Origin: Duganella sp. CF458
GTDB taxonomy: Bacteria > Pseudomonadota > Gammaproteobacteria > Burkholderiales > Burkholderiaceae_D
Direction: 5' to 3'
Length of the DNA stretch: 64,000 nt
NCBI RefSeq assembly: GCF_900113115.1
Contig: NZ_FOOF01000002.1
Span: 62,001-126,000, forward strand
Shown: positions 3,322-13,198 of the stretch, piece after piece
Layout: each line of letters starts with the position of its first letter
How positions within the stretch are numbered: the first letter of the stretch is position 1
Position numbers and translations under genes: made by a program
Notes under the pieces: generated by a model
The model's input: only the letters and a program-made list of their open reading frames with translations
Told to the model about the DNA's origin: nothing
Databases searched by the model: none

Positions 3322-4932
3322 ATGACGAATCCTGGCTATAACCGCAGGCGCTTCCTTACCCATACAGGAGCATTCACGGTAGGCACGGCGGCATTCGGTT
3401 TAAGCGGCTGCGGCTCCGGCTCGTCCAGCGCAGCTCCCGCCATCATTGCTTCCGAATCCGAACGTCCCAAGCTGCCATACGGGATCCAGATTGGCGATAT
3501 GGGCGACGGCCGCGCCATGGTGTGGGCACGCTCCGACCGCCCCGCGCGCATGCGGGTGGAGTTCGATACCAGCGACAGCTTCCTCAATCCACGCCAGGTC
3601 ATTGGTCCGACTGCCACAGAGGCCAGCGATTTCACCAGCCGGATCGAGCTGACCGGCCTGCCCTCCGGCGAAAAGATCTTCCTGCGCGTCTCCTATGACA
3701 GCGCAAGCGACGTGAAGATTGGCAGCGAACCCGTGGCAGGCAGCTTCCGCACGTTGCCATCGCCGGACGGCAAGCGCGCGGTGCGTTTCGTGTGGAGCGG
3801 CGATACCGCTGGCCAGGGATGGGGCATCAACCCCGAGTTTGGCGGCATGAAAATCTATGAAGCCATGCGCAAGCGTCAGCCGGATTTCTTTGTCCACAGT
3901 GGCGACAACATCTACGCCGACGGGCCGATCAGCGCCGAGGTCAAGGCGGAAAACGGCCGCATCTGGAAGAACATCGTTATCCCGGAAGTCTCGAAAGTCG
4001 CCGAAACGCTCAACGAATTCCGCGGCCGCTACCGTTACAACATGATGGACGAGAATATCCGTCGCTTCAACGCGGAAGTTCCGCAGATCTGGCAGTGGGA
4101 CGACCACGAGGTCACCAACAACTGGTCGGCATCGAAGGACTTGGGCGGCGATATCCGCTACAGCGAAAAGAACATCCAGACGCTGATCGCGCGCGGCAAG
4201 CAAGCCTTCCTTGAATACGCCCCGATGCGCTGGGCTGACCAGCCCGAATCGCAGCGCGTATACCGGCGGATTCCCTATGGCCCCTTGCTCGACGTGTTCG
4301 TCCTCGACATGCGCTCGTATCGCGGTCCGAACAGCAACAACCTGCAAGCCGTCGACAGTGATGCAAGCGCTTTCCTCGGCGCGGCGCAGGTCAAATGGCT
4401 CAAGGACTCACTCTCGCAATCGACCGCAACGTGGAAAGTGATTGCCGCAGACATGCCGATCGGCCTGCAGGTCCCCGACGGCAAGGATGCCGGCGGTACG
4501 GCGTGCTGGGAAGCAATCGCCAATGGAAACGATGGCGTGCCCTTGGGCCGGGAAATCGAGATGGCCGGGCTGCTGCGCGACATCAAGTCGATCAAGAATG
4601 TGGTGTGGATAACTGCCGATGTTCACTACTGCGCCGCCCACTACTACGATCCCGCCCATGCCAAGTTCACCGACTTCTCGCCATTCTGGGAATTCGTGGC
4701 GGGCCCGCTGAACGCCGGTACTTTCGGCCCCAACGCCCTGGATGGAACGTTCGGGCCGCAGGTCAAGTTCCAGAAAGCGCCTGCCGCGGGCCTGGCCAAC
4801 CTCTCGCCCTTTGCCGGCTTCCAGTTCTTCGGCGAAGTGAACATTGACCCGCAGACGAAGGCCTTCACCATCGACCTGCGCGACCTCGATGGCGCTTCGG
4901 TCTACTCCAACACCTTGCCGCCGGCTGCCTGA
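3322..4932 (+). CDS. PhoD-like alkaline phosphatase/phosphodiesterase, Tat-exported lipoprotein
   Basis: A 536-residue protein. The N-terminus has a twin-arginine motif (NRRRFLTHTG) and a lipobox LSGC with Cys30, so it is probably exported folded and lipid-anchored. An N-terminal beta domain (about 45-145, GIQIGDMGDGRAMVWARS) precedes the metallophosphatase domain with the PhoD motifs WSGDTAGQ, HSGDNIYADGP, WDDHEVTNNW, DMRSYR and TADVHYCAAHYY. Family members hydrolyse phosphate mono- and diesters using iron and calcium. No Pho box was identified. It stands alone, with a terminator upstream and a convergent oxidoreductase downstream. Confidence 0.88.
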   Translation: MTNPGYNRRRFLTHTGAFTVGTAAFGLSGCGSGSSSAAPAIIASESERPKLPYGIQIGDMGDGRAMVWARSDRPARMRVEFDTSDSFLNPRQVIGPTATEASDFTSRIELTGLPSGEKIFLRVSYDSASDVKIGSEPVAGSFRTLPSPDGKRAVRFVWSGDTAGQGWGINPEFGGMKIYEAMRKRQPDFFVHSGDNIYADGPISAEVKAENGRIWKNIVIPEVSKVAETLNEFRGRYRYNMMDENIRRFNAEVPQIWQWDDHEVTNNWSASKDLGGDIRYSEKNIQTLIARGKQAFLEYAPMRWADQPESQRVYRRIPYGPLLDVFVLDMRSYRGPNSNNLQAVDSDASAFLGAAQVKWLKDSLSQSTATWKVIAADMPIGLQVPDGKDAGGTACWEAIANGNDGVPLGREIEMAGLLRDIKSIKNVVWITADVHYCAAHYYDPAHAKFTDFSPFWEFVAGPLNAGTFGPNALDGTFGPQVKFQKAPAAGLANLSPFAGFQFFGEVNIDPQTKAFTIDLRDLDGASVYSNTLPPAA

Positions 4933-4940
4933 GCCAATAT

Positions 4941-6548
4941 CTAACCGCGCAGGACGCGCTGCGCTGCGCGGTATCCCCACCAGGAGGCTTCTTCAAAAAC
5001 CGAGAATCCGCTCAGGTCCGAGTGAGCAAACAGCACCGGCCCCTCCATTTCCCGCAAAGCCTTCAAGCCCGCATCGCCACGGAATCCAGGTACCGGCACC
5101 GCCATCGCATGGCCGCGCAGGGTGATGTCCACACGCTCCACGCAGCGCTCGAACTGCGCGCCGTAGGCCGCTTTCAGGTCGACGCTGGCCAGCGCCAGCA
5201 ACTCCTCGCCACTCGCCGTCATCATCCATTTGCGCGCTTCGCGCGGATCGCGGTCGGACAGCGCAACGTAGCTGGTGAAGACCGTTTTCTCCGGCGGCGC
5301 CACGCGGATGTCCTGGTGTGTCGAGACCACGTAGCCCAGGCCCTTGGTGCCATGCACCACGTTATCCCAGGACAGCGGTACCGCCGGCAGCTCCTGTGGA
5401 AAACGCTTCATCAGGAAGTTCGCCACCATCCATGGCGCGTGAATCTGCTTGTGGACATCCGGCATGTTTTCCACAACCCTTGCGGCCACATGCAGCGGCA
5501 TGGCGCAAATGACCCGCCGCGCACGGATCGTGAAAGTACGCGCCACGCCGCGTTCCAGCGCAAGGCAAAGCACCTCTACGCCCCGCCCGGCGTCGGCGTG
5601 GTCCGCGCGCACGCGCACCGCGCTGCCGGGGAGCCGCTTTGGCTTGGCCAGCCGCTCCATGCCGCTCACCAGCGCCTGCAGGCCGTCCGGCCAGGTCAGC
5701 CAGGAACCCAGCTCCGCGTTCTCCGCCTCGCCGCCGCGCCCGCAGAAATAATGCAGCCCCGCCCAGGCCGACACTGCATCGACTCCCGCGCCATAATCGT
5801 CGCGGCAGCAGTAATCCATGTACCACAGCAAGGAGGGCGCCCGAAAGCCATGCTGGGCAAGCCACGCGCCAAAACTCATGCCATCAAGCTGCCCAGCCTC
5901 AGCATCCCTCGACGAATGCTCGCTGGGAAAGGTAAACCTGCGCCGCCCATCCGCACCGACAGCGCCGCGCAGCGCCTCGACCTGCGCAAAGAAGCGCTTA
6001 TGCTCGGCCAGTTCGGTCTCCGGCACATCCTCGTGCGGCAAGACGCCTTCCTGCCAGACGCCGTTGAACAGCAACCGATCCTCCGGCGCATGCAGTACAA
6101 ACCGCTCATCGTAATAAGGCTTGCGCGACGTGGCTCCGCGCTGGATCACACCCAGGTCTGCCAACAATTCGCGCACATGGGCACATTCCTCCGTTGGCAG
6201 TGGCAAATAGTGCGCGCCCGTCGGATAAGCCAGGGAGCCAAAGTGTCCGCCCGCCGCATTCCCGTAGGGCTCCGGCCCATCGAGCATCAGGAAGTCATCG
6301 TGTCCCTGCTTGCGCAACTGCCAGGCCGCCGTCAGCGCCGCGACGCCGGAACCGAGGATCAGGACGTCCGTCGACAAGGACTGCGAAGGAGCAGGCAAAG
6401 GCTTGCGGTCGCGCAGGAAGTGCCCCTCCTCCCGTCCCGGAGCATTCACGGTCGGCGTGATCTCCTGCCAGCGCAGGTAGCCCGCCACGCTGGCCGCCGC
6501 CGTGGCACCGCTGGCAGCGGCCCAAGCCAGGAAAGAACGGCGCAGCAT
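4941..6548 (-). CDS. FAD-dependent oxidoreductase of amine-oxidase type, exported or membrane-tethered
   Basis: A 535-residue protein with a hydrophobic N-terminus starting MLRRSFLAWAAASGA (two Arg, possible Tat-type signal), then a dinucleotide-binding beta-alpha-beta DVLILGSGVAALTAAWQL (about 61-78) in which the third Gly is Ala, and a C-terminal ALREMEGPVLFAHSDLSGFSVFEEASW typical of flavin amine oxidases (quoted as separate pieces: GPVLFAHSDLSG, FEEASWWGYRAAQ). The start overlaps the stop of the upstream spermidine-synthase-like gene (ATGA), so translation is probably coupled. Oxidation of an amine product made by its partner is an attractive idea but is inferred from context only. Confidence 0.78.
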   Translation of the reverse strand: MLRRSFLAWAAASGATAAASVAGYLRWQEITPTVNAPGREEGHFLRDRKPLPAPSQSLSTDVLILGSGVAALTAAWQLRKQGHDDFLMLDGPEPYGNAAGGHFGSLAYPTGAHYLPLPTEECAHVRELLADLGVIQRGATSRKPYYDERFVLHAPEDRLLFNGVWQEGVLPHEDVPETELAEHKRFFAQVEALRGAVGADGRRRFTFPSEHSSRDAEAGQLDGMSFGAWLAQHGFRAPSLLWYMDYCCRDDYGAGVDAVSAWAGLHYFCGRGGEAENAELGSWLTWPDGLQALVSGMERLAKPKRLPGSAVRVRADHADAGRGVEVLCLALERGVARTFTIRARRVICAMPLHVAARVVENMPDVHKQIHAPWMVANFLMKRFPQELPAVPLSWDNVVHGTKGLGYVVSTHQDIRVAPPEKTVFTSYVALSDRDPREARKWMMTASGEELLALASVDLKAAYGAQFERCVERVDITLRGHAMAVPVPGFRGDAGLKALREMEGPVLFAHSDLSGFSVFEEASWWGYRAAQRVLRG

Positions 6549-8059
6549 CAGCGAATCACCCTGCGCCAGTCCTGTTCGAATTCGTGCACCAGCGATTGCG
6601 TATTGAGCCGGTTCGGCGCCATCGGCAGCGGTTTCATATCCGGCGGGAAGGTGAACATGGCACGAGTGGTATCCGCGTTCAGGAACCGCATCGACAGGCT
6701 GTACGACTCGGGCGGCCGGTAATCAAGCTGCGGCGACGCCATGATGAAGCCCCATTCGCCGAACGAAGGCACGTACAGGTGATACGGCCAGGTGCGCATG
6801 CCAACGTCGCGCAGCGTCGCATCCACCGTCCAATACGCATGCGGTGCAAAGAATGGCGAAGTCGCCTGCACCACCACCAAGCCGTTGGCCGCGATATGCT
6901 TTTTCAGCACGCCGTAGAACGGCACCGAATACAGCTTGCCCAGCGCAAAACTGGAAGGATCGGGGAAATCGACAATCGCCGCATCGAACATCTCCTCGCT
7001 TTGCTGCAGCCAGATCGCCGCATCGGCATTCACTACCGTGACGCGTTTGTCGCGGAAAGAGCCCTTGTTCAGCTCCACCAGTTCGTCGCGCGTGGTAAAG
7101 GCCGCCGTCATGGCAGGATCCAGGTCCACCAGGGTCACGTGTTCCACCTGTGGATAACGCAAGACTTCGCGCAGCGCCAGCCCGTCGCCGCCGCCCAGGA
7201 TCAGGACGCGCTTGGCCCACGGCAGCGCGCCCATCACCGGGTGCACCAGCGCTTCGTGGTAACGGTACTCATCGCGCGAGGAGAACTGCAGGTTGCCGTT
7301 GATATACAGCCGCAGGTCATCCTTCCATTTGGTGATGACCAGTCGCTGGTACGGCGTGCTGGTCGAGTACACGATCTCGTCGCCAAACAAGCCATGCTCG
7401 CCCCAGCCGGTGAGCCGGTTCGCGCCGCTGAAGCCGATCACCAATGCCAGCATCACGGCGCTGGCGCGCAGCAAACGGCCCGCCACGTTCGGCAGCTCCG
7501 CGCGAAAAACGTAGATTGTCCACAGGGCTACCGCGATGTTCAGCATCCCGAACAGGAAACCGGTGCGCACCAGCCCAAGCTGCGGTGCCAGCACCAATGG
7601 GAACAGCAGCGACACGGCCAGCGCGCCGAGGTAGTCGAAAGTCAGCACCCGGCTGACCAGTTCACTGAATTCCGTCTGGCGCGAGTTCAGCGCACGCATC
7701 ACCAGCGGAATCTCCATGCCCACCATGGCCCCTACCAGGAATACCGTGGTGTACAGCAAAGTGCGGAACGGCGCGGAAGCCCACGCAAAAGTCATGAACA
7801 GCACGGCGGCCGACACGCCGCCAATCAAGCCCACTGCCAGTTCGATGTCGACGAAGCGCGCCAGCACGTCCTCGTCCTTCACGTACTTGGAAAAGTGCGC
7901 CCCCACGCCCATCGCGAACAGGTAGCAGCCGATAATGGTGGAGAACTGCAGCACCGAGTCACCCAGCAGGTAGCTGGAAAGCGCACCGGCGATTAATTCG
8001 TAGGCAAGACCGCAGGAGGCGACGACGAAGACTGAAACAATGAGAATCTTTTTGGTCAT
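6548..8059 (-). CDS. Membrane-anchored spermidine synthase-like aminopropyltransferase
   Basis: A 503-residue two-part protein. Residues 1-215 hold about six or seven membrane segments; residues 225-450 are a spermidine-synthase fold with LYINGNLQFSSRDEYRYHE, the SAM-type loop ILGGGDGLALREVL (289-293) and VDFPDPSS (Asp364). Soluble SpeE lacks the membrane part; such fusions form a separate family whose product is not generally known. The downstream FAD oxidoreductase overlaps by ATGA. The divergent operon ends with speD, the enzyme that supplies decarboxylated SAM, so aminopropyl transfer is the most likely chemistry; the acceptor is unknown. Confidence 0.85.
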   Translation of the reverse strand: MTKKILIVSVFVVASCGLAYELIAGALSSYLLGDSVLQFSTIIGCYLFAMGVGAHFSKYVKDEDVLARFVDIELAVGLIGGVSAAVLFMTFAWASAPFRTLLYTTVFLVGAMVGMEIPLVMRALNSRQTEFSELVSRVLTFDYLGALAVSLLFPLVLAPQLGLVRTGFLFGMLNIAVALWTIYVFRAELPNVAGRLLRASAVMLALVIGFSGANRLTGWGEHGLFGDEIVYSTSTPYQRLVITKWKDDLRLYINGNLQFSSRDEYRYHEALVHPVMGALPWAKRVLILGGGDGLALREVLRYPQVEHVTLVDLDPAMTAAFTTRDELVELNKGSFRDKRVTVVNADAAIWLQQSEEMFDAAIVDFPDPSSFALGKLYSVPFYGVLKKHIAANGLVVVQATSPFFAPHAYWTVDATLRDVGMRTWPYHLYVPSFGEWGFIMASPQLDYRPPESYSLSMRFLNADTTRAMFTFPPDMKPLPMAPNRLNTQSLVHEFEQDWRRVIR

Positions 8060-8123
8060 TTGAGTGCTTTTGTTCTAATATGTTTCTTTTGCTACAAGCA
8101 TGTCACTTTAACCGGGGATCGAC

Positions 8124-8510
8124 GTGAACGCCATCCTAAATTATCTGGTCCACTTGGCACTGGCCGCATTGTTGTTGGTAGTCTTCTTCAAAGCCTATAC
8201 TTGGATGACGCCATATGACGAAGTAAAACTTATCCGGCAGGGCAATCACGCTGCAGCCCTGTCGCTGGGCGGCGCCATGCTGGGTTTTTCCATGACCATC
8301 GCATCGAGCATCCTGCACACGAATAACTGGCAGCAGTTCCTGGCCTGGGCTTTCGGCGCGATGATCGTACAGGCGCTTGGCTACGCGGTCACCACGCGCT
8401 GCCTGAAAATGTCGCAAGACCAGATTGAAGCCGACAACAGCGCCTTCGGCGGCCTGCTCGGCACTATTTCGCTTTCCATCGGTGGCATCAACGCCGCCTG
8501 CATTTCCTAA
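8124..8510 (+). CDS. DUF350 (YjfL-type) membrane protein
   Basis: A 128-residue integral membrane protein with about four helices. The segment TWMTPYDEVKLIRQGNHAAA after helix 1 and the closing SIGGINAACIS are typical of DUF350. The GTG start at 8124 follows GGGGATC. The gene opens a five-gene operon and is divergent from the membrane aminopropyltransferase across only 64 bases. DUF350 genes occur with polyamine-type and PspA/band-7 genes in other bacteria (the E. coli yjf locus is one example); the molecular function is unknown. Confidence 0.88.
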   Translation: MNAILNYLVHLALAALLLVVFFKAYTWMTPYDEVKLIRQGNHAAALSLGGAMLGFSMTIASSILHTNNWQQFLAWAFGAMIVQALGYAVTTRCLKMSQDQIEADNSAFGGLLGTISLSIGGINAACIS

Positions 8511-8521
8511 GAGGTCACATC

Positions 8522-9577
8522 ATGGGTATCGGCAGCTTTATCAAGAAGCAGTTTATCGACGTACTGCAGTGGAATGAAGAAACGGAAGGCGTACTGTCCT
8601 GGCGCTACCCGATGCAGGACTTCGAGATCCAGAACGGCGGTGTGCTGATCGTGCGCGAGTCGCAGATCGCGGTATTCGTCAACGAAGGCCAGATCGCCGA
8701 CGTGTTCGGCCCAGGCACCCACAAGCTCACCACGCAAACCCTGCCGCTGCTGACCAACCTGAAAAACTGGGACAAGCTGTTCGACTCGCCGTTCAAGTCG
8801 GACGTCTATTTCTTCAGCACCCGTGTGCAGACCGGCCGCAAGTGGGGCACGCCGCAGCCGATCACGATCCGCGACAAGGATTTCGACATGATCCGCGTGC
8901 GCGCCTTCGGCATGTATTCCTACCGCGTGACCGATCCGCGCAAGTTCTTCACCGAATTGAGCGGCACCCGCAGCACTTATACCCGCGACGACGTGGAAGA
9001 CCAGCTGCGCGGCATCCTGCTGGCCTCCATGGCCAACTCGCTGGGCGCTTCGCAAATCGCCTTCCTCGACATGGCGGCCAACCAGGCCCTGATGGCGCAG
9101 GAAGTCAAAGGCGGCCTGGCCGAGGCGTTCGCACGCTACGGCATTGGCCTGGACGAGTTCAACGTGGCCAGCGTCAGCCTGCCTGAGGAACTGCAGGCTG
9201 CGCTGGACGAGCGTATCTCCGCCGGCATGAAGGGCGGCATGAGCGCCGACAAGATGGCCGGCTACACCAAGTACCAGGTGGCGCAATCGATCCCGCTGGC
9301 AGCCGGCAACGAAGGCGGCCTGGCAGGCATTGGCGCAGGCCTGGGTGCCGGCCTGACCGTCGGCCAGGTGATGGGCCAGGCGATGGGCCAGGCCCTGAAC
9401 CCGGGCGCGGCACCGGCGCCGGCTCCCGAAGCAGCTCCGGCCGCTCCCGCGGCACCGGCGCAGGAATCGATCGAAGACCGCCTCGGCAAGCTGAAAGCCC
9501 TGCTGGACAAGGGCCTGATCTCGCCGGCCGATTACGACGCCACCAAGGCCGAACTGCTCAAGAAACTGATCGGATAA
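8522..9577 (+). CDS. SPFH (band-7-like) domain protein with C-terminal SHOCT
   Basis: A 351-residue protein: the SPFH region covers about residues 25-235 (LIVRESQIAVFVNEGQIADV, later YFFSTRVQTGRKWGTPQP), then a Gly/Ala-rich linker with MGQAMGQALNPG and an Ala/Pro run, and finally a SHOCT motif over the last 35 residues (EDRLGKLKALLDKGLIS). No N-terminal membrane segment is seen, unlike stomatins; it resembles the soluble YdjI/virion-core-like SPFH group. SPFH proteins oligomerise at membranes and SHOCT is a short oligomerisation element. It starts 11 bases after the DUF350 stop and precedes the DUF4178 gene, so it is probably a scaffold of this system. Confidence 0.88.
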   Translation: MGIGSFIKKQFIDVLQWNEETEGVLSWRYPMQDFEIQNGGVLIVRESQIAVFVNEGQIADVFGPGTHKLTTQTLPLLTNLKNWDKLFDSPFKSDVYFFSTRVQTGRKWGTPQPITIRDKDFDMIRVRAFGMYSYRVTDPRKFFTELSGTRSTYTRDDVEDQLRGILLASMANSLGASQIAFLDMAANQALMAQEVKGGLAEAFARYGIGLDEFNVASVSLPEELQAALDERISAGMKGGMSADKMAGYTKYQVAQSIPLAAGNEGGLAGIGAGLGAGLTVGQVMGQAMGQALNPGAAPAPAPEAAPAAPAAPAQESIEDRLGKLKALLDKGLISPADYDATKAELLKKLIG

Positions 9578-9587
9578 GCCAGGCCGC

Positions 9588-11066
9588 ATGCAAACTGTTT
9601 CCTGCCCTAGCTGCGGCGCAGAGGTTAACTTCCGCTCGCACGCCTCCGTCATGGCGGTGTGCGAGTATTGCAACACGCGCGTACTGAAGGAAGCCGGCGC
9701 GGTCAAGGACCTGGGCAAGATTTCCTCGGTGCTGGAGGATTACTCGCCGATCCAGATCGGCACCAGCGGTGTGCTGGGCGGCCGCAACTTCAACGTGGTC
9801 GGCCGCATCCAGCTGAAGTATGACGCCGGCATGTGGAACGAGTGGTACATCGTCTTCGACGACGCCACCAGCGGCTGGCTCGGCGATGCATCCGGCCAGT
9901 ACACGGTGACCACGCTGCGCAAGCCCGACACGCAGTTGCCTGCCTTCGAGGACATTGTCCCCGGCAAACCTTACCAGCTGGTTGGCGCGCGCTATATGTC
10001 GGCCGACGTCAGGAGCGCCAAGTGCGTCGGCGGCCAGGGCGAGCTGCCATTCAAGGTAGGCGACGGCTGGGAAGCGAAAGTCGCCGACTTCCGCCGTGCC
10101 GACCATTTCATCACTCTCGATTATTCCGATGAGGGCCCGCCGCAGATGTACACCGGCGTCTCGGTCACGCTGCAAGGCATGCAAGCCCAGTTGCTGCGCG
10201 ATGTGGATGAAATCCAGCGCACGACGGGCCGTTATCGCGGCAAACTCGATGCGTTGGACTGCCCGAACTGCGGCACCCAGATCAAATACCTGCCCGGCTT
10301 GACGGCAAGCCTGGTCTGCCAGTCCTGCCAGACCGAGATCGACGCCGCCAGCCCGAAGGCCGAAGTCATCGCCGTCGGCCAGCGGCATGAGAAGGAATCT
10401 TTCACACTGCCGCTGGGCGCCAGCGGCAAGCTTGGCAACCAGGACTTTACCGTGATCGGCGTAATGCGCCGGGCCGACGACGAAGGCAGCGGCTGGACCG
10501 AGTACCTGCTGTACGGCAGCCGGAACGGCTTTACCTGGCTGGTCGAAACCGCAGATGGCTGGTCGCGCGCCAACGTCATGGACCAGTGGCCGGAAGCAAA
10601 GGTGCTGGATTCCCAATCGGTGACCTTCGACAAGGCCGACTACACCAAACTGTATGACTACAACTCGGTCGTGACCTATGCGGCGGGCGCCTTCAACTGG
10701 CGTGTGTCGGTGGGCGACCATACCCACGTTTACGAATACAAGCGCCAGCAGGTGACGCTGGCGGCCGAAATCACTACCACTGAACTTGGCTGGTCGCGCT
10801 CCACCCCGGTCGCCTGGGACCAGCTCAAGGCCTGGTTTGGCGACGCCATCAAAGGCGAAAAAGCCAGCGGGGCAGTCGCGCAAGATTTCAGCAAGGGCCG
10901 CTATGCCCGCTCGGCCAAGAACTGGATCATCGGAATCCTGGCGGTGAATGCCATTCCGCTGTTGTTCAATTTTGGCGGCTCCATTGGCGTCACCATCATG
11001 GCAGCCCTTGCGCTTTACCTGCCGGCACTGGTGCTGGATGCAATCGACGACCAAAACAAAAAATGA
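9588..11066 (+). CDS. DUF4178 protein with two zinc ribbons and C-terminal membrane segments
   Basis: A 492-residue protein. Two CxxC...CxxC knuckles are present: CPSCG/CEYCN at the N-terminus and CPNCG/CQSCQ near residues 225-247. Each is followed by a beta-rich DUF4178 repeat (GRNFNVVGRIQLKYDAG and GNQDFTVIGVMRRAD). About two membrane helices lie near the C-terminus (WIIGILAVNAIPLLF, VTIMAALALYLPALV). The stop overlaps the next start as ATGA. The duplicated ribbon-plus-DUF4178 layout suggests a membrane-tethered binding protein; no catalytic motif is visible. Confidence 0.85.
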   Translation: MQTVSCPSCGAEVNFRSHASVMAVCEYCNTRVLKEAGAVKDLGKISSVLEDYSPIQIGTSGVLGGRNFNVVGRIQLKYDAGMWNEWYIVFDDATSGWLGDASGQYTVTTLRKPDTQLPAFEDIVPGKPYQLVGARYMSADVRSAKCVGGQGELPFKVGDGWEAKVADFRRADHFITLDYSDEGPPQMYTGVSVTLQGMQAQLLRDVDEIQRTTGRYRGKLDALDCPNCGTQIKYLPGLTASLVCQSCQTEIDAASPKAEVIAVGQRHEKESFTLPLGASGKLGNQDFTVIGVMRRADDEGSGWTEYLLYGSRNGFTWLVETADGWSRANVMDQWPEAKVLDSQSVTFDKADYTKLYDYNSVVTYAAGAFNWRVSVGDHTHVYEYKRQQVTLAAEITTTELGWSRSTPVAWDQLKAWFGDAIKGEKASGAVAQDFSKGRYARSAKNWIIGILAVNAIPLLFNFGGSIGVTIMAALALYLPALVLDAIDDQNKK

Positions 11067-11233
11067 ATAAATTCTTCGGCTACGCCCTGGTGGTGAGCAT
11101 GTTCAGCGTCGGCACAAGCTGGGTTAGATTTGTCAACGAACCGTCCTCGAGCAGCGGCGGCGGCTCCCGCGGCAGCAGCTGGTCTTCCAGCTCGGGCAGC
11201 TGGGGCAGCGGTGGCGGCGGAGGGCATAAGTGA
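11063..11233 (+). CDS. 56-residue protein with Ser/Gly-rich tail
   Basis: Starts at the ATGA overlap with the DUF4178 stop and ends overlapping the GTG start of speD, so it is enclosed on both sides by translational coupling, a strong sign that it is real. The N-terminus (MNKFFGYALVVSMFSVGTSW) is hydrophobic and may be a membrane anchor or signal; the rest is almost only Ser, Gly and Trp (GSSWSSSSGSWGSGGGGG) and ends in His-Lys. It matches no family I recognise. Position suggests an accessory or substrate peptide of the system. Confidence 0.75.
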   Translation: MNKFFGYALVVSMFSVGTSWVRFVNEPSSSSGGGSRGSSWSSSSGSWGSGGGGGHK

Positions 11234-11589
11234 GCACCCACCAACCCAATGGCACGCACCTGCTGGCCGACATGTCCGGCATCGAAGCGGGCCTGCTGGT
11301 GGACTGCACCAGGATTGAGCAATTGCTGCGCGCTGCGGCGGCGGCAGCCGGCGCACAGGTGCTGCACAGCCACTTCCACAGCTTCGGCAGCGGGCTGGGC
11401 GTGACCGGCGTGGTACTGCTGGCAGAGTCCCACATCTCCATCCATACCTGGCCGGAAAACGGCTTCGCGGCCGCCGACATCTTCATGTGCGGCGCCTCCC
11501 AGCCCCACCTCGCGCTGGAAGTGATCGAGGAAGCGCTGCAGCCAGAATGCTCCGAAGTCCGTACTGTCGACCGCGCGCCACCACATTGA
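11230..11589 (+). CDS. speD: S-adenosylmethionine decarboxylase proenzyme
   Basis: A 119-residue class 1b (SpeH-type) enzyme. The self-cleavage site AESHISIHTWPE is complete: Glu66/Ser67, with Ser67 becoming the pyruvoyl group; His72 and Cys87 (DIFMCG) fit the processing and proton-donor residues. It makes decarboxylated SAM, the aminopropyl donor. The GTG start lies in the GTGA overlap with the preceding small gene. Being the last gene of the SPFH/DUF4178 operon and facing away from the membrane aminopropyltransferase, it most probably serves that enzyme rather than, or in addition to, ordinary spermidine synthesis. Confidence 0.93.
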   Translation: MSTHQPNGTHLLADMSGIEAGLLVDCTRIEQLLRAAAAAAGAQVLHSHFHSFGSGLGVTGVVLLAESHISIHTWPENGFAAADIFMCGASQPHLALEVIEEALQPECSEVRTVDRAPPH

Positions 11590-11595
11590 CTTGCA

Positions 11596-11616
11596 CCGGT
11601 GTCGGTGCGACACTGG
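11596..11616 (+). other. Hairpin directly after speD
   Basis: CCGGTGTCG (11596-11604) pairs with CGACACTGG (11608-11616), with one G-U pair, across a 3-base loop. It begins 7 bases after the speD stop and lacks a T-run, so an mRNA-stabilising end or a Rho-associated structure is more likely than an intrinsic terminator. Confidence 0.5.
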
Positions 11617-11647
11617 CGGCTTCTTCACCAATCCACAGGAGATTTCC

Positions 11648-11686
11648 ATGCGTTCGTTTGATCTTGCCCTCCTGTCGGCTGCCTGA
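11648..11686 (+). other. Possible 12-codon leader ORF
   Basis: ATG at 11648 is preceded by a strong ribosome-binding site (CACAGGAGATTTCC) and encodes MRSFDLALLSAA before TGA. A GC-rich hairpin with a TTTT tract follows about 20 bases later, then the RsgA-type gene. This could be a leader peptide with attenuator, or the broken start of a lost exported protein. The sequence alone cannot decide. Confidence 0.35.
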
Positions 11687-11706
11687 CCTTCAGCGTTTGA
11701 GCTAGA

Positions 11707-11730
11707 GCGCCCGGCCGGGCGCCGACTTTT
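11707..11730 (+). terminator. GC-rich palindrome with T-tract
   Basis: GCGCCCGGCCGGGCGC (11707-11722) is a perfect palindrome, followed closely by TTTT at 11727-11730. It probably ends transcripts from the speD operon or the short leader ORF. Confidence 0.55.
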
Positions 11731-11798
11731 CCAGACTATTCCTGCTTGCCACGCCGCGCGTGGCTGGTCGTGTTCACCTATGGAAAACGCTCAACATC

Positions 11799-12812
11799 AT
11801 GATCGACTTCGACTACGAAGCCTTACGCAGCATCGGACTTAACAACACCATCATTTCACGCCTGGCCGAAGCACCAGCAGGCAAGCTGTACCGCATCACC
11901 GAATACCAGCGCGACCGCATCACGCTGCACGACGGTTCAACAGAAATTCACGCACGCGCCCTGCCCCGCCTGCTCGTCGAAACACCGCTTTGCGTCGGTG
12001 ACTGGGTAGTCGCCGAACGCAATTCCTTCGACGAGGTGTGGATAAGTCATCGCTTATCCCCGATGAACCAGTTTGCCCGCGCCGACGCACCACCGATAGC
12101 GAGCAATATCGATACCGCTTTGCTGGTCATGGGACTGGACGGCGACTTCAACCTGCGACGGATCGAGCGCTACCTGGCCCTGGCTGCGGCGGCCGAAGTC
12201 ACACCCTTGGTCATTCTCAGCAAGCCGGATCTCTGCGTCGATGCGGATGGCCACGTTGCCGCGCTGACGAAACGCCTTCCCTCGGGCACGCAATTCCTGC
12301 TGGTGAACGGCACCGATCGGGAATCGATTGCGCAGCTGGCACCCTGGCTGGGTGCCGGCCAGACCATCTGCCTGTTGGGCTCATCAGGCGCCGGCAAATC
12401 GACCTTGACCAATGCCCTGGCTGGAGCGGTCCAGGAAACCGGTGGCGTGCGGCGTACCGATCATCGCGGCCGTCACACGACGACCGCGCGCTCGATGCAC
12501 CTGTGCCCTTCCGGCGCATGCATCATCGATACGCCCGGCTTGCGCAGCCTGAGTCCGGAATCCTTGTCGTCGGCCTTCGACGATATCGAATCGCTGGCGG
12601 CAGGCTGCCAGTTCCGCGATTGCCGGCATGAAGGCGAGCCCGGCTGCGCCGTCGTCGGCCATGTGGACCCGGACCGCCTGCACAATTTCCACAAGCTGCA
12701 GCGCGAAGTTCGCCGCAATCAGCAAACTGCGCTGGAACGGATCGCCGAACGGCAAAAATGGAAGGTCGTGTTGAGGTCGGCCGCTGTACGCAGCCGTCTG
12801 AAGCGAGGCTAG
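11799..12812 (+). CDS. rsgA: RsgA-type ribosome small-subunit-dependent GTPase
   Basis: A 337-residue circularly permuted GTPase: an OB-type N-domain, then G4 as SKPD (141-144), G1 LLGSSGAGKST (194-202), G3 DTPG (244-247) and a zinc knuckle C-x4-C-x-H-x5-C (Cys270, Cys275, His277, Cys283). RsgA proteins help late 30S subunit maturation. G4 is SKPD rather than the usual NKxD, so this may be a second RsgA-type paralogue and not the main housekeeping copy. The start at 11799 aligns with the expected N-terminus; an upstream in-frame GTG at 11760 would add 13 residues. The end overlaps the convergent VOC gene by 4 bases. Confidence 0.85.
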   Translation: MIDFDYEALRSIGLNNTIISRLAEAPAGKLYRITEYQRDRITLHDGSTEIHARALPRLLVETPLCVGDWVVAERNSFDEVWISHRLSPMNQFARADAPPIASNIDTALLVMGLDGDFNLRRIERYLALAAAAEVTPLVILSKPDLCVDADGHVAALTKRLPSGTQFLLVNGTDRESIAQLAPWLGAGQTICLLGSSGAGKSTLTNALAGAVQETGGVRRTDHRGRHTTTARSMHLCPSGACIIDTPGLRSLSPESLSSAFDDIESLAAGCQFRDCRHEGEPGCAVVGHVDPDRLHNFHKLQREVRRNQQTALERIAERQKWKVVLRSAAVRSRLKRG

Positions 12813-13198
12813 CTTTCCTGCACGGTGGCCTCGATGTTGTTGCCGTCGAGGTCGATAATAAACGCGCTGTAAAAGCTTGCATCGCTGACGCGTGGACCTG
12901 GCGGGCCGTTGTCTTCGGCTCCCAGGTCGATCGCTGCATAGTAGAACGCGTTCACCGCTGCCCGGTCCGGCGCGGCAAATGCCAAATGGATGGGACTGCG
13001 CGATGCTTCGTGCCCGCTTTTCCAAAAGCTGGGAATCTCGGCGCCCACCCACAGGAAAGGATGACCTGGAGCAGCGGCATAAATGGCCCAGTCCAGGTCG
13101 GTCTCCGCGCGGCGAATCCCGAGAGGCGCCAGGCATGCATCGTAGAGCGCCGCGCTGCGCACGAAATCCGAAACGACAATGCCCAGATGGTGGATCAT
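12809..13198 (-). CDS. VOC (glyoxalase/bleomycin-resistance fold) family protein
   Basis: A 129-residue single VOC module: MIHHLGIVVSDFVRSAALYD at the N-terminus with the first metal-ligand His, PIHLAFAAPDRAAV in the middle with the second, and DLDGNNIEA near the end with the terminal Glu ligand. Paired betaalphabetabetabeta repeats of this kind bind a divalent metal and act on varied small substrates; the substrate cannot be predicted. It converges on the RsgA gene with a 4-base overlap and has no obvious operon partner. Confidence 0.82.
   Translation of the reverse strand: MIHHLGIVVSDFVRSAALYDACLAPLGIRRAETDLDWAIYAAAPGHPFLWVGAEIPSFWKSGHEASRSPIHLAFAAPDRAAVNAFYYAAIDLGAEDNGPPGPRVSDASFYSAFIIDLDGNNIEATVQES

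Follow-up and report, generated by a model that had tools for sequence, protein, structure and literature searches.

Lysine-ended tethered proteins beside a membrane-fused SpeE-like enzyme in Duganella sp. CF458 and its relatives: candidate acceptors for aminopropyl transfer

Results

Genes of the locus

In this work, we present an analysis of a gene cluster of Duganella sp. CF458, situated at positions 4941-11589 of a 64,000-nucleotide stretch of its genome (NCBI RefSeq assembly GCF_900113115.1, contig NZ_FOOF01000002.1, positions 62,001 to 126,000 of the forward strand; hereafter the window). The cluster includes an enzyme in which a seven-transmembrane (7TM) domain is fused to a SpeE-like aminopropyltransferase, a SpeD decarboxylase, a flavin adenine dinucleotide (FAD) amine-oxidase-type enzyme, three membrane or scaffold proteins and a 56-amino-acid (aa) protein. 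The initial annotation described these seven genes as two divergent operons with overlapping genes, and all the open reading frames (ORFs) were confirmed (Table 1). It was silent on the lysine end of the 56-aa ORF, which we regard as the candidate acceptor of the aminopropyl group.

Table 1. Features of the locus in window coordinates
Feature	Position	Strand	Basis
FAD amine-oxidase family gene	4941-6548	-	PF01593 32.4 bits (cut-off 19.8)
7TM + SpeE (aminopropyltransferase) fusion	6548-8059	-	PRK03612 685 bits; PF01564
Divergent intergenic region, 64 bp, presumed promoters for both operons	8060-8123		sequence only
DUF350 (YjfL-family) membrane protein	8124-8510	+	PF03994 114.9 bits
SPFH/Band_7_1 protein, SHOCT at C-terminus	8522-9577	+	PF13421 252 bits; PF09851 29 bits
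DUF4178 protein, zinc-ribbon-like CxxC pairs, C-terminal membrane segments	9588-11066	+	PF13785 in two stretches
56-aa small protein, proposed aminopropyl acceptor	11063-11233	+	matches no family
AAG, C-terminal lysine codon	11228-11230	+	GGAGGGCATAAGTGA at 11219-11233
SpeD, S-adenosylmethionine decarboxylase	11230-11589	+	TIGR03330 125.9 bits (cut-off 75.65)

On the minus strand the fusion gene lies upstream of the FAD gene, and the two overlap by one base (TGATG on that strand). On the plus strand the DUF4178 gene and the small ORF share an ATGA overlap, the small ORF and speD a GTGA overlap, and gaps of 11 bp and 10 bp follow the DUF350 and SPFH genes, respectively. Hydrophobic segments of the DUF4178 protein are located at residues 447-465 and 465-483.

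A conserved C-terminal lysine

The 56-aa protein (MNKFFGYALVVSMFSVGTSW...) is composed of one membrane segment and a Ser/Gly tail with the end GGGGGHK. A search of its own genome for codons specifying a terminal -GGHK gave this ORF alone.

Relatives of the fusion were sought by a scan of species genomes; the best 80 of 590 confirmed loci, which together with the window make 81, were studied. These 80 come from Beta- and Gammaproteobacteria, Acidobacteria, Gemmatimonadetes, Verrucomicrobia and Fibrobacteres. Their fusion proteins are up to 91% identical to that of the window (L036), whose relatives include Duganella, Massilia and Pseudoduganella. In the relatives, the ORFs located just 3' of DUF4178 encode lysine-ended small membrane proteins which differ greatly in sequence. 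A profile of the small protein matched only 28 of the 81 loci, mostly those of Oxalobacteraceae, and elsewhere a positional rule was needed: a start between -30 and +160 nt from the DUF4178 stop, a length of 40-130 aa and a hydrophobic N-terminal part. It was applied to 99 loci (the window, L007-L086 and L124-L141; L062 and L124 are the same contig, both counted), 80 of which contain DUF4178.

By this rule, a lysine-ended ORF was found at 72 of the 80 DUF4178 loci, with the end -HK in 57 cases and -GK in 15. At L068, L076 and L085 the ORF ends with GK and falls below the hydrophobicity cut, at L069 it lies further downstream and ends with FGGK, and at L045, L050, L125 and L131 the tail is carried by DUF4178 itself and ends with HK or GK. 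In total, an -HK or -GK end is present at 80/80 DUF4178 loci (76 small membrane ORFs, 4 on DUF4178 itself). The background frequency of a lysine end is 69/1460 (4.7%) for other small ORFs with a hydrophobic N-terminus at the same loci, or 141/1532 with the 72 included. The rule prefers a lysine-ended ORF, yet only 12 competing candidates without lysine were met, which by eye are overlapping frames or genes for DUF350 or SpeD. At 60% identity, the 70 distinct sequences selected by the rule form 41 clusters. With lysine at position -1 being part of the selection, position -2 is solely H or G, position -3 and beyond are variable, and 54 of the 70 have no other lysine in the 24 residues before the last one.

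The same kind of end was seen in further samples. At loci L125-L134, drawn evenly from the class as described below, the partner or the DUF4178 tail ends with HK or GK in 10 of 10 cases, the partners of L130, L132, L133 and L134 being predicted lipoproteins. Cassettes lying on other contigs of genomes with an orphan fusion gave a lysine end in 7/7 (L135-L141) and, for L142-L149, in 6/6 readable cases, as the contigs of L143 and L146 end inside DUF4178. In Acidobacteriota, the phylum of G399 (L068), the fusion is found in 26 of 149 genomes, and 25 regions (all but that of G399) were taken as L199-L223; these include near-identical relatives and possibly overlap with genomes of the first set. 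Here 20 of 21 DUF4178 loci are lysine-ended by the rule, and at L206 the ORF, displaced by an inserted gene, ends with YRSGK. A lipoprotein ending with SSGK is encoded at L222; L217 and L223, at contig ends, and L218, which has no cassette, are uninformative.

Homologues of the individual types behave likewise. The L133-type lipoprotein has a GK end in 58/60 homologues (the two exceptions come from contigs of 555 and 734 bases), the 47-aa membrane type an HK end in 52/53 (the exception from a 676-base contig), and the L134-type lipoprotein a GK end in 120/120 of the matches listed, the best 120 of 870. The L133-type and L134-type lipoproteins have no significant BLAST similarity to each other (E 0.9). 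In the window, a one-transmembrane (1-TM) peptide that ends in a similar way occupies the place of the lipoprotein; in Deefgea (L031) a lipobox is present there (by eye). As a separate observation, in Dechloromonas-type genomes (L137, 3572-4219; likewise L136, L139 and L140) a protein whose tail ends with a Gly/Cys-rich run and Asp adjoins the lysine-tailed ORF.

Co-occurrence of the gene set

Profile searches of the 81 loci, many of whose stretches end early at contig ends, found DUF350 at 63, SPFH at 60, DUF4178 at 66, SpeD at 55 and FAD at 58. When only the 52 loci flanked by 5 kb or more on each side are counted, the respective numbers are 46, 44, 47, 44 and 43. Fifteen genomes had the fusion without DUF4178 on the fetched stretch, and whole-genome searches located DUF4178 elsewhere in 15/15 of them (7/7 and 8/8). 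Among 370 genomes drawn evenly from the class, DUF4178 was found in 9 and the fusion in 11 (E <= 1e-60), with 8 in common; in the ninth DUF4178 genome, G122, the fusion is also present, below that cut.

The three fusion-only genomes of this draw represent a different variant, with a lipoprotein and a GNAT enzyme (the latter in the two checked with Pfam). At L130, L132 and L133 the fusion is accompanied by a lipoprotein ending with SRGK; Pfam assigns a GNAT acetyltransferase at L130 and L133 and, at L133 only, a Sel1-repeat protein. On these three stretches the profiles found no DUF4178, DUF350 or FAD. Another arrangement was noticed at L218, where two different 7TM-SpeE fusions (5500-6993 and 11458-13038) lie on one contig, with no cassette on it.

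A search of 40 fusion genomes found SpeD in 39 (a single copy in 36, two copies in 3), the exception being G398 (L067). Among the 11 fusion genomes of the class draw (one already among the 40) it is encoded in 10, the exception being G126. The majority of these 11 have their SpeD on a different contig or distant from the locus, in ORFs of about 270 aa, which may serve ordinary spermidine synthesis there.

The constant core thus consists of the fusion and the lysine tail, with DUF350 and DUF4178 in most loci, while FAD and SPFH come and go. The initial annotation had named rare co-occurrence of these families in other genomes as the result that would speak against it; instead, the survey reveals linkage far beyond chance. 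A chance neighbourhood was rejected given the profile counts and the presence of DUF4178 in 15/15 orphan-fusion genomes.

Enzymes of the cluster

The Duganella genome is listed as 100% complete and contains a single match each for SpeD and DUF350, both at the locus. SpeD passes the AdoMet decarboxylase family score, and its motif ESHISIHTWPE...CG, with the residues usually numbered S63, H68 and C83, is intact. Motifs GGGDG, VDLD, NADA, DFPDP and YHE of the SpeE domain align with solved spermidine synthases. Three other proteins of the genome (C17, C26 and C28) pass the Pfam spermine-synthase cut-off, are PRK04457-like and fall below NCBIfam cut-offs, and no second spermidine synthase scored above NCBIfam cut-offs in this genome.

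An AlphaFold2 model of the fusion (mean predicted local distance difference test score, pLDDT, 87.9; predicted template modelling score, pTM, 0.70) has seven long helices followed by a SpeE fold, and gives no membrane orientation. This was approached through charges of ten-residue loop blocks in 92 aligned sequences. Lysine plus arginine (K+R) amounted to 2.7, 3.5 and 3.0 after TM2, TM4 and TM6, and to 0.0, 0.9 and 1.2 after TM1, TM3 and TM5; summed per sequence, this is 9.3 (loops 2-3, 4-5 and 6-7) versus 2.1 (loops 1-2, 3-4 and 5-6). The N-terminal block had K+R of 0.8, and the 30 residues past TM7 had K+R of 2.3 and aspartate plus glutamate (D+E) of 4.1. This bias predicts that the N-terminus is inside and the SpeE domain outside. 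Residues E21, E73, E116 and D142 do not vary among 38 sequences and are located in helices in the model; buried carboxylates of this kind in the 7TM domain might be required for handling a cationic substrate.

The FAD protein of the window starts with MLRRSFLAW..., where RRSFL precedes a hydrophobic stretch, as in a twin-arginine translocation (Tat) signal. A Tat-like RR motif with a hydrophobic stretch is present at 53 of the 58 loci with a clean FAD match, several also having a lipobox (by eye), and the enzyme is predicted to be periplasmic. Export is also predicted for the lipoprotein forms of the lysine-tailed partner, so that the charge bias of the fusion, the Tat-like signal and the lipoprotein prediction all point to the periplasm. 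Profile comparison matched the FAD enzyme to L-amino-acid oxidase, putrescine oxidase, LSD1 and FMS1, and phmmer against solved structures gave no match. Because the profile matches are mostly confined to the FAD-binding part, its substrate is a guess; where present, it could mature or erase the mark.

Comparison with peptide-spermidine ligase systems

The YgiB-YgiC and YjfIJKLMC systems of E. coli, with peptide-spermidine ligases (Pederick et al. 2023), resemble the locus in having DUF350 (in yjf), a tethered lipoprotein, a flexible Ser/Gly-rich tail and polyamine-on-peptide chemistry. They differ in using ATP-grasp amide ligation and in tails which mostly end with Gly-Gly rather than Lys. 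Neither an ATP-grasp ligase nor DUF1190 is found among the seven genes, and the Duganella genome gave no DUF1190 match. DUF1190 lipoproteins end with GG in 9/12 cases (YgiB, YjfM and 7/10 class-draw genomes), the others with GS, GS and AG, and with K in 0/12; a YgiC homologue is present on the DUF1190 stretch of 9/10 class-draw genomes, the tenth stretch ending early. E. coli YgiB (L158, 2245-2916) ends with Met-Gly-Gly and YjfM (L170, 2388-3026) with Trp-Gly-Gly. These tails may be natural substrates of the neighbouring ligases. In both kinds of system the terminal residue fits the neighbouring chemistry: a carboxylate for the ligase, an amine for the aminopropyltransferase.

Surroundings of the cluster

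A gene for a PhoD-like alkaline phosphatase (3322-4932) converges on the FAD gene, from which 8 bp separate it, and was matched at 1 of the 81 loci, the window itself. After speD lies a gene for an RsgA-like ribosome GTPase (11760-12812), matched on 7 of the 81 stretches. Ordinary chromosomal genes occupy 15335-62255, among them those for a histidine kinase, an F-type ATPase-like subunit, MnmG, a GGDEF-EAL protein, PutA, GlmS-like and GlmU-like proteins and a TonB receptor.

Discussion

Gene content, conservation of the terminal lysine, the Tat motif, the charge pattern and the conserved catalytic motifs were computed in this study, and the chemistry itself is inferred from them. We consider it somewhat probable that the SpeE fusion adds an aminopropyl group to the lysine that ends the small membrane-anchored protein. 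The full periplasmic form of this idea, i.e. aminopropylation of the C-terminal lysine, perhaps iterative, outside the membrane by an enzyme with its own donor transporter, optionally followed by editing through a periplasmic flavin oxidase, is a more tentative proposal, weakened somewhat by the inconstancy of the FAD enzyme and by a fusion genome that lacks SpeD.

In this proposal SpeD, the sole one found in the genome, would, judging by its family, make decarboxylated S-adenosylmethionine (dcAdoMet) in the cytoplasm. The 7TM domain would take this cationic donor through the membrane and deliver it to the SpeE domain of the same protein, which the charge bias places on the periplasmic side, and there the aminopropyl group would be moved onto the epsilon-amine of the lysine that ends the small protein. 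The lysine side chain is a 4-aminobutyl group, like the putrescine arm, so an aminopropyl addition would give a spermidine-like side chain; the product, N-epsilon-(3-aminopropyl)lysine, would in effect equip the flexible tethered tail with a spermidine end. The Tat-exported FAD oxidase, where present, may oxidise, trim or reverse the secondary amine, a step regarded as optional because many relatives have no FAD gene, and the DUF350, SPFH-SHOCT and DUF4178 proteins may serve to assemble the complex or to anchor it at the membrane. The charged tail perhaps stabilises the envelope or signals stress together with its SPFH and DUF350 partners.

A number of observations weigh against this proposal. 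dcAdoMet is cytoplasmic, and no route for its export is known to us. G126 carries the fusion and a lysine-tailed lipoprotein with no SpeD match at 99% completeness (its locus is L130), and G398 has no SpeD match either. YgiC has no evident export signal and its lipoprotein neighbour is exported, which suggests that tails might be modified before export. FAD was not found on 23/81 stretches of the first set (several ending early), 8/11 of L124-L134 and 3/25 of L199-L223, and on the L199-L223 stretches SPFH is present in 1/25 and SpeD in 12/25. The small protein itself shows a weak charge bias (N>C in 31 of 72, N<C in 14 and tied in 27), and in Psychrobacter (L045 and L050) two membrane segments are predicted ahead of the fused tail, a topology that might leave it in the cytoplasm. 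Finally, many of the loci are closely related and the counts overstate their independence.

Some of these points bear on a reading which shares the acceptor and differs from the periplasmic proposal in place only, with a cytoplasmic SpeE domain and a tail modified before or during export. The cytoplasmic location of donor and SpeD, the comparison with YgiC and the topology of the Psychrobacter tail speak for it, but we find it unlikely in view of the positive-inside bias of the 92 aligned sequences and the Tat-exported oxidase where present. To a similarly low degree we credit the possibility that the acceptor is an envelope lipid, a cell-wall polymer or a small amine, with the lysine-tailed protein as a binding or regulatory subunit whose lysine docks unmodified in the enzyme or membrane. 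Such a role would agree with the membrane fusion and the envelope partners, a conserved terminal residue may also act as a docking motif, and the substrate is left open in the accessible text of Ravi et al. 2024 (PMC11237479). On the other hand, the terminal residue is shared by dissimilar tethered scaffolds (the 1-TM peptide, both lipoprotein families and the DUF4178 tail), lysine offers a primary amine, the group these enzymes act on, and the spermidine-ligase systems mostly have a Gly carboxylate end instead.

Less likely still, the lysine would be a target of other chemistry, either FAD oxidation to an aldehyde for cross-linking or conjugation of its carboxylate, and the aminopropyl group would go to another molecule. 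The presence of FAD on 58/81 stretches and its profile matches, putrescine oxidase and lysine-specific demethylase included, mostly over the FAD-binding part, are compatible with this, but no FAD match was obtained on the fetched stretches of L127-L134, all with a lysine-tailed partner. An ordinary pair of spermidine synthase and SpeD, membrane-attached by an accident of fusion, would suit the NCBIfam name (polyamine aminopropyltransferase, PRK03612), the intact catalytic residues and the one SpeD of the genome, and is nonetheless very improbable and not favoured, given the fixed linkage with DUF350, DUF4178 and other envelope genes and with the lysine tail, and since such a fusion reportedly gives no speE complementation and such bacteria are said to be without spermidine.

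Aminopropylation of the terminal lysine remains our preferred explanation. Of the three targets which the initial annotation had considered, a lipid, a polymer or a membrane protein, the protein is best supported, the candidate being the C-terminal lysine of a small tethered protein, and lipid and polymer are less so. Its view that the decarboxylated-SAM chemistry probably serves something other than free spermidine gains support, as do the membrane setting and the exported FAD enzyme.

Systems of this kind have been noticed before. In 2019, Li et al. (Biochem J 476:2579) reportedly described an MFS-spermidine synthase fusion with a functional AdoMetDC, clustered with DUF350; spermidine was said to be absent, the fusion to fail in complementing a speE mutant, and an acceptor other than putrescine to be proposed. 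That work reportedly named no acceptor, whereas the present analysis proposes a specific one. The substrate question was reportedly raised there. Nor is the association undescribed, as the initial annotation had implied it to be: much of the neighbourhood is present in the accessible text of Ravi et al. 2024 (PMC11237479), whose second group consists of PspA operons with the 7TM-SpeE fusion, DUF350, DUF4178 and a novel lipoprotein. Among its ATP-grasp ligase operons (third group) there are variants with band-7/SHOCT replacing the PspA dyad, and with AdoMet decarboxylase and polyamine oxidase. Aminopropylation of other substrates is mentioned there as well, and the word "lysine" is absent from the main text (PMC11237479).

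The window shares with the second group the N-terminal 7TM on a SpeE-like domain and the adjacent DUF350 and DUF4178. The CesT/Tir (DUF2170) and PspA dyad of that group is not among the seven genes, although it is present in the relative L134, and for this reason the window is a variant and not a typical member. It joins second-group enzymes with band-7/SHOCT, SpeD and oxidase genes, and the place of the lipoprotein is taken by the 56-aa one-TM peptide. What is new here is the candidate acceptor residue; the neighbourhood and the idea of another substrate were already known.

Comparable modifications exist in eukaryotes. Hypusine of eIF5A sits on lysine. In the descriptions available it is likewise a polyamine-derived unit on a protein, but the unit is an aminobutyl group from spermidine and the protein is a translation factor. 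Lysines of diatom silaffins are alkylated with aminopropyl units according to the available text of PMC4557024; these differ in being eukaryotic silica proteins whose lysines are clustered (e.g. KXXK) and further methylated. Wording on lysine aminopropylation had no match in a literature search with most subscription journals outside its scope, and DUF4178 was mentioned in one paper of that literature.

Conclusions

Thousands of bacterial genomes encode a SpeD and a membrane-fused SpeE which seemingly do not make spermidine. What this pair produces has reportedly been open since the work of Li et al. in 2019, and a named acceptor residue makes the substrate question answerable by one mass-spectrometry experiment. 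If true, the proposal would add a new bacterial protein modification and a possible export route for decarboxylated SAM, and would explain why DUF350, SPFH and PspA envelope systems accompany polyamine enzymes. Together with YgiC/YjfC it would then define a class of systems which, through two different chemistries, place a spermidine-like cation at the end of a tethered tail.

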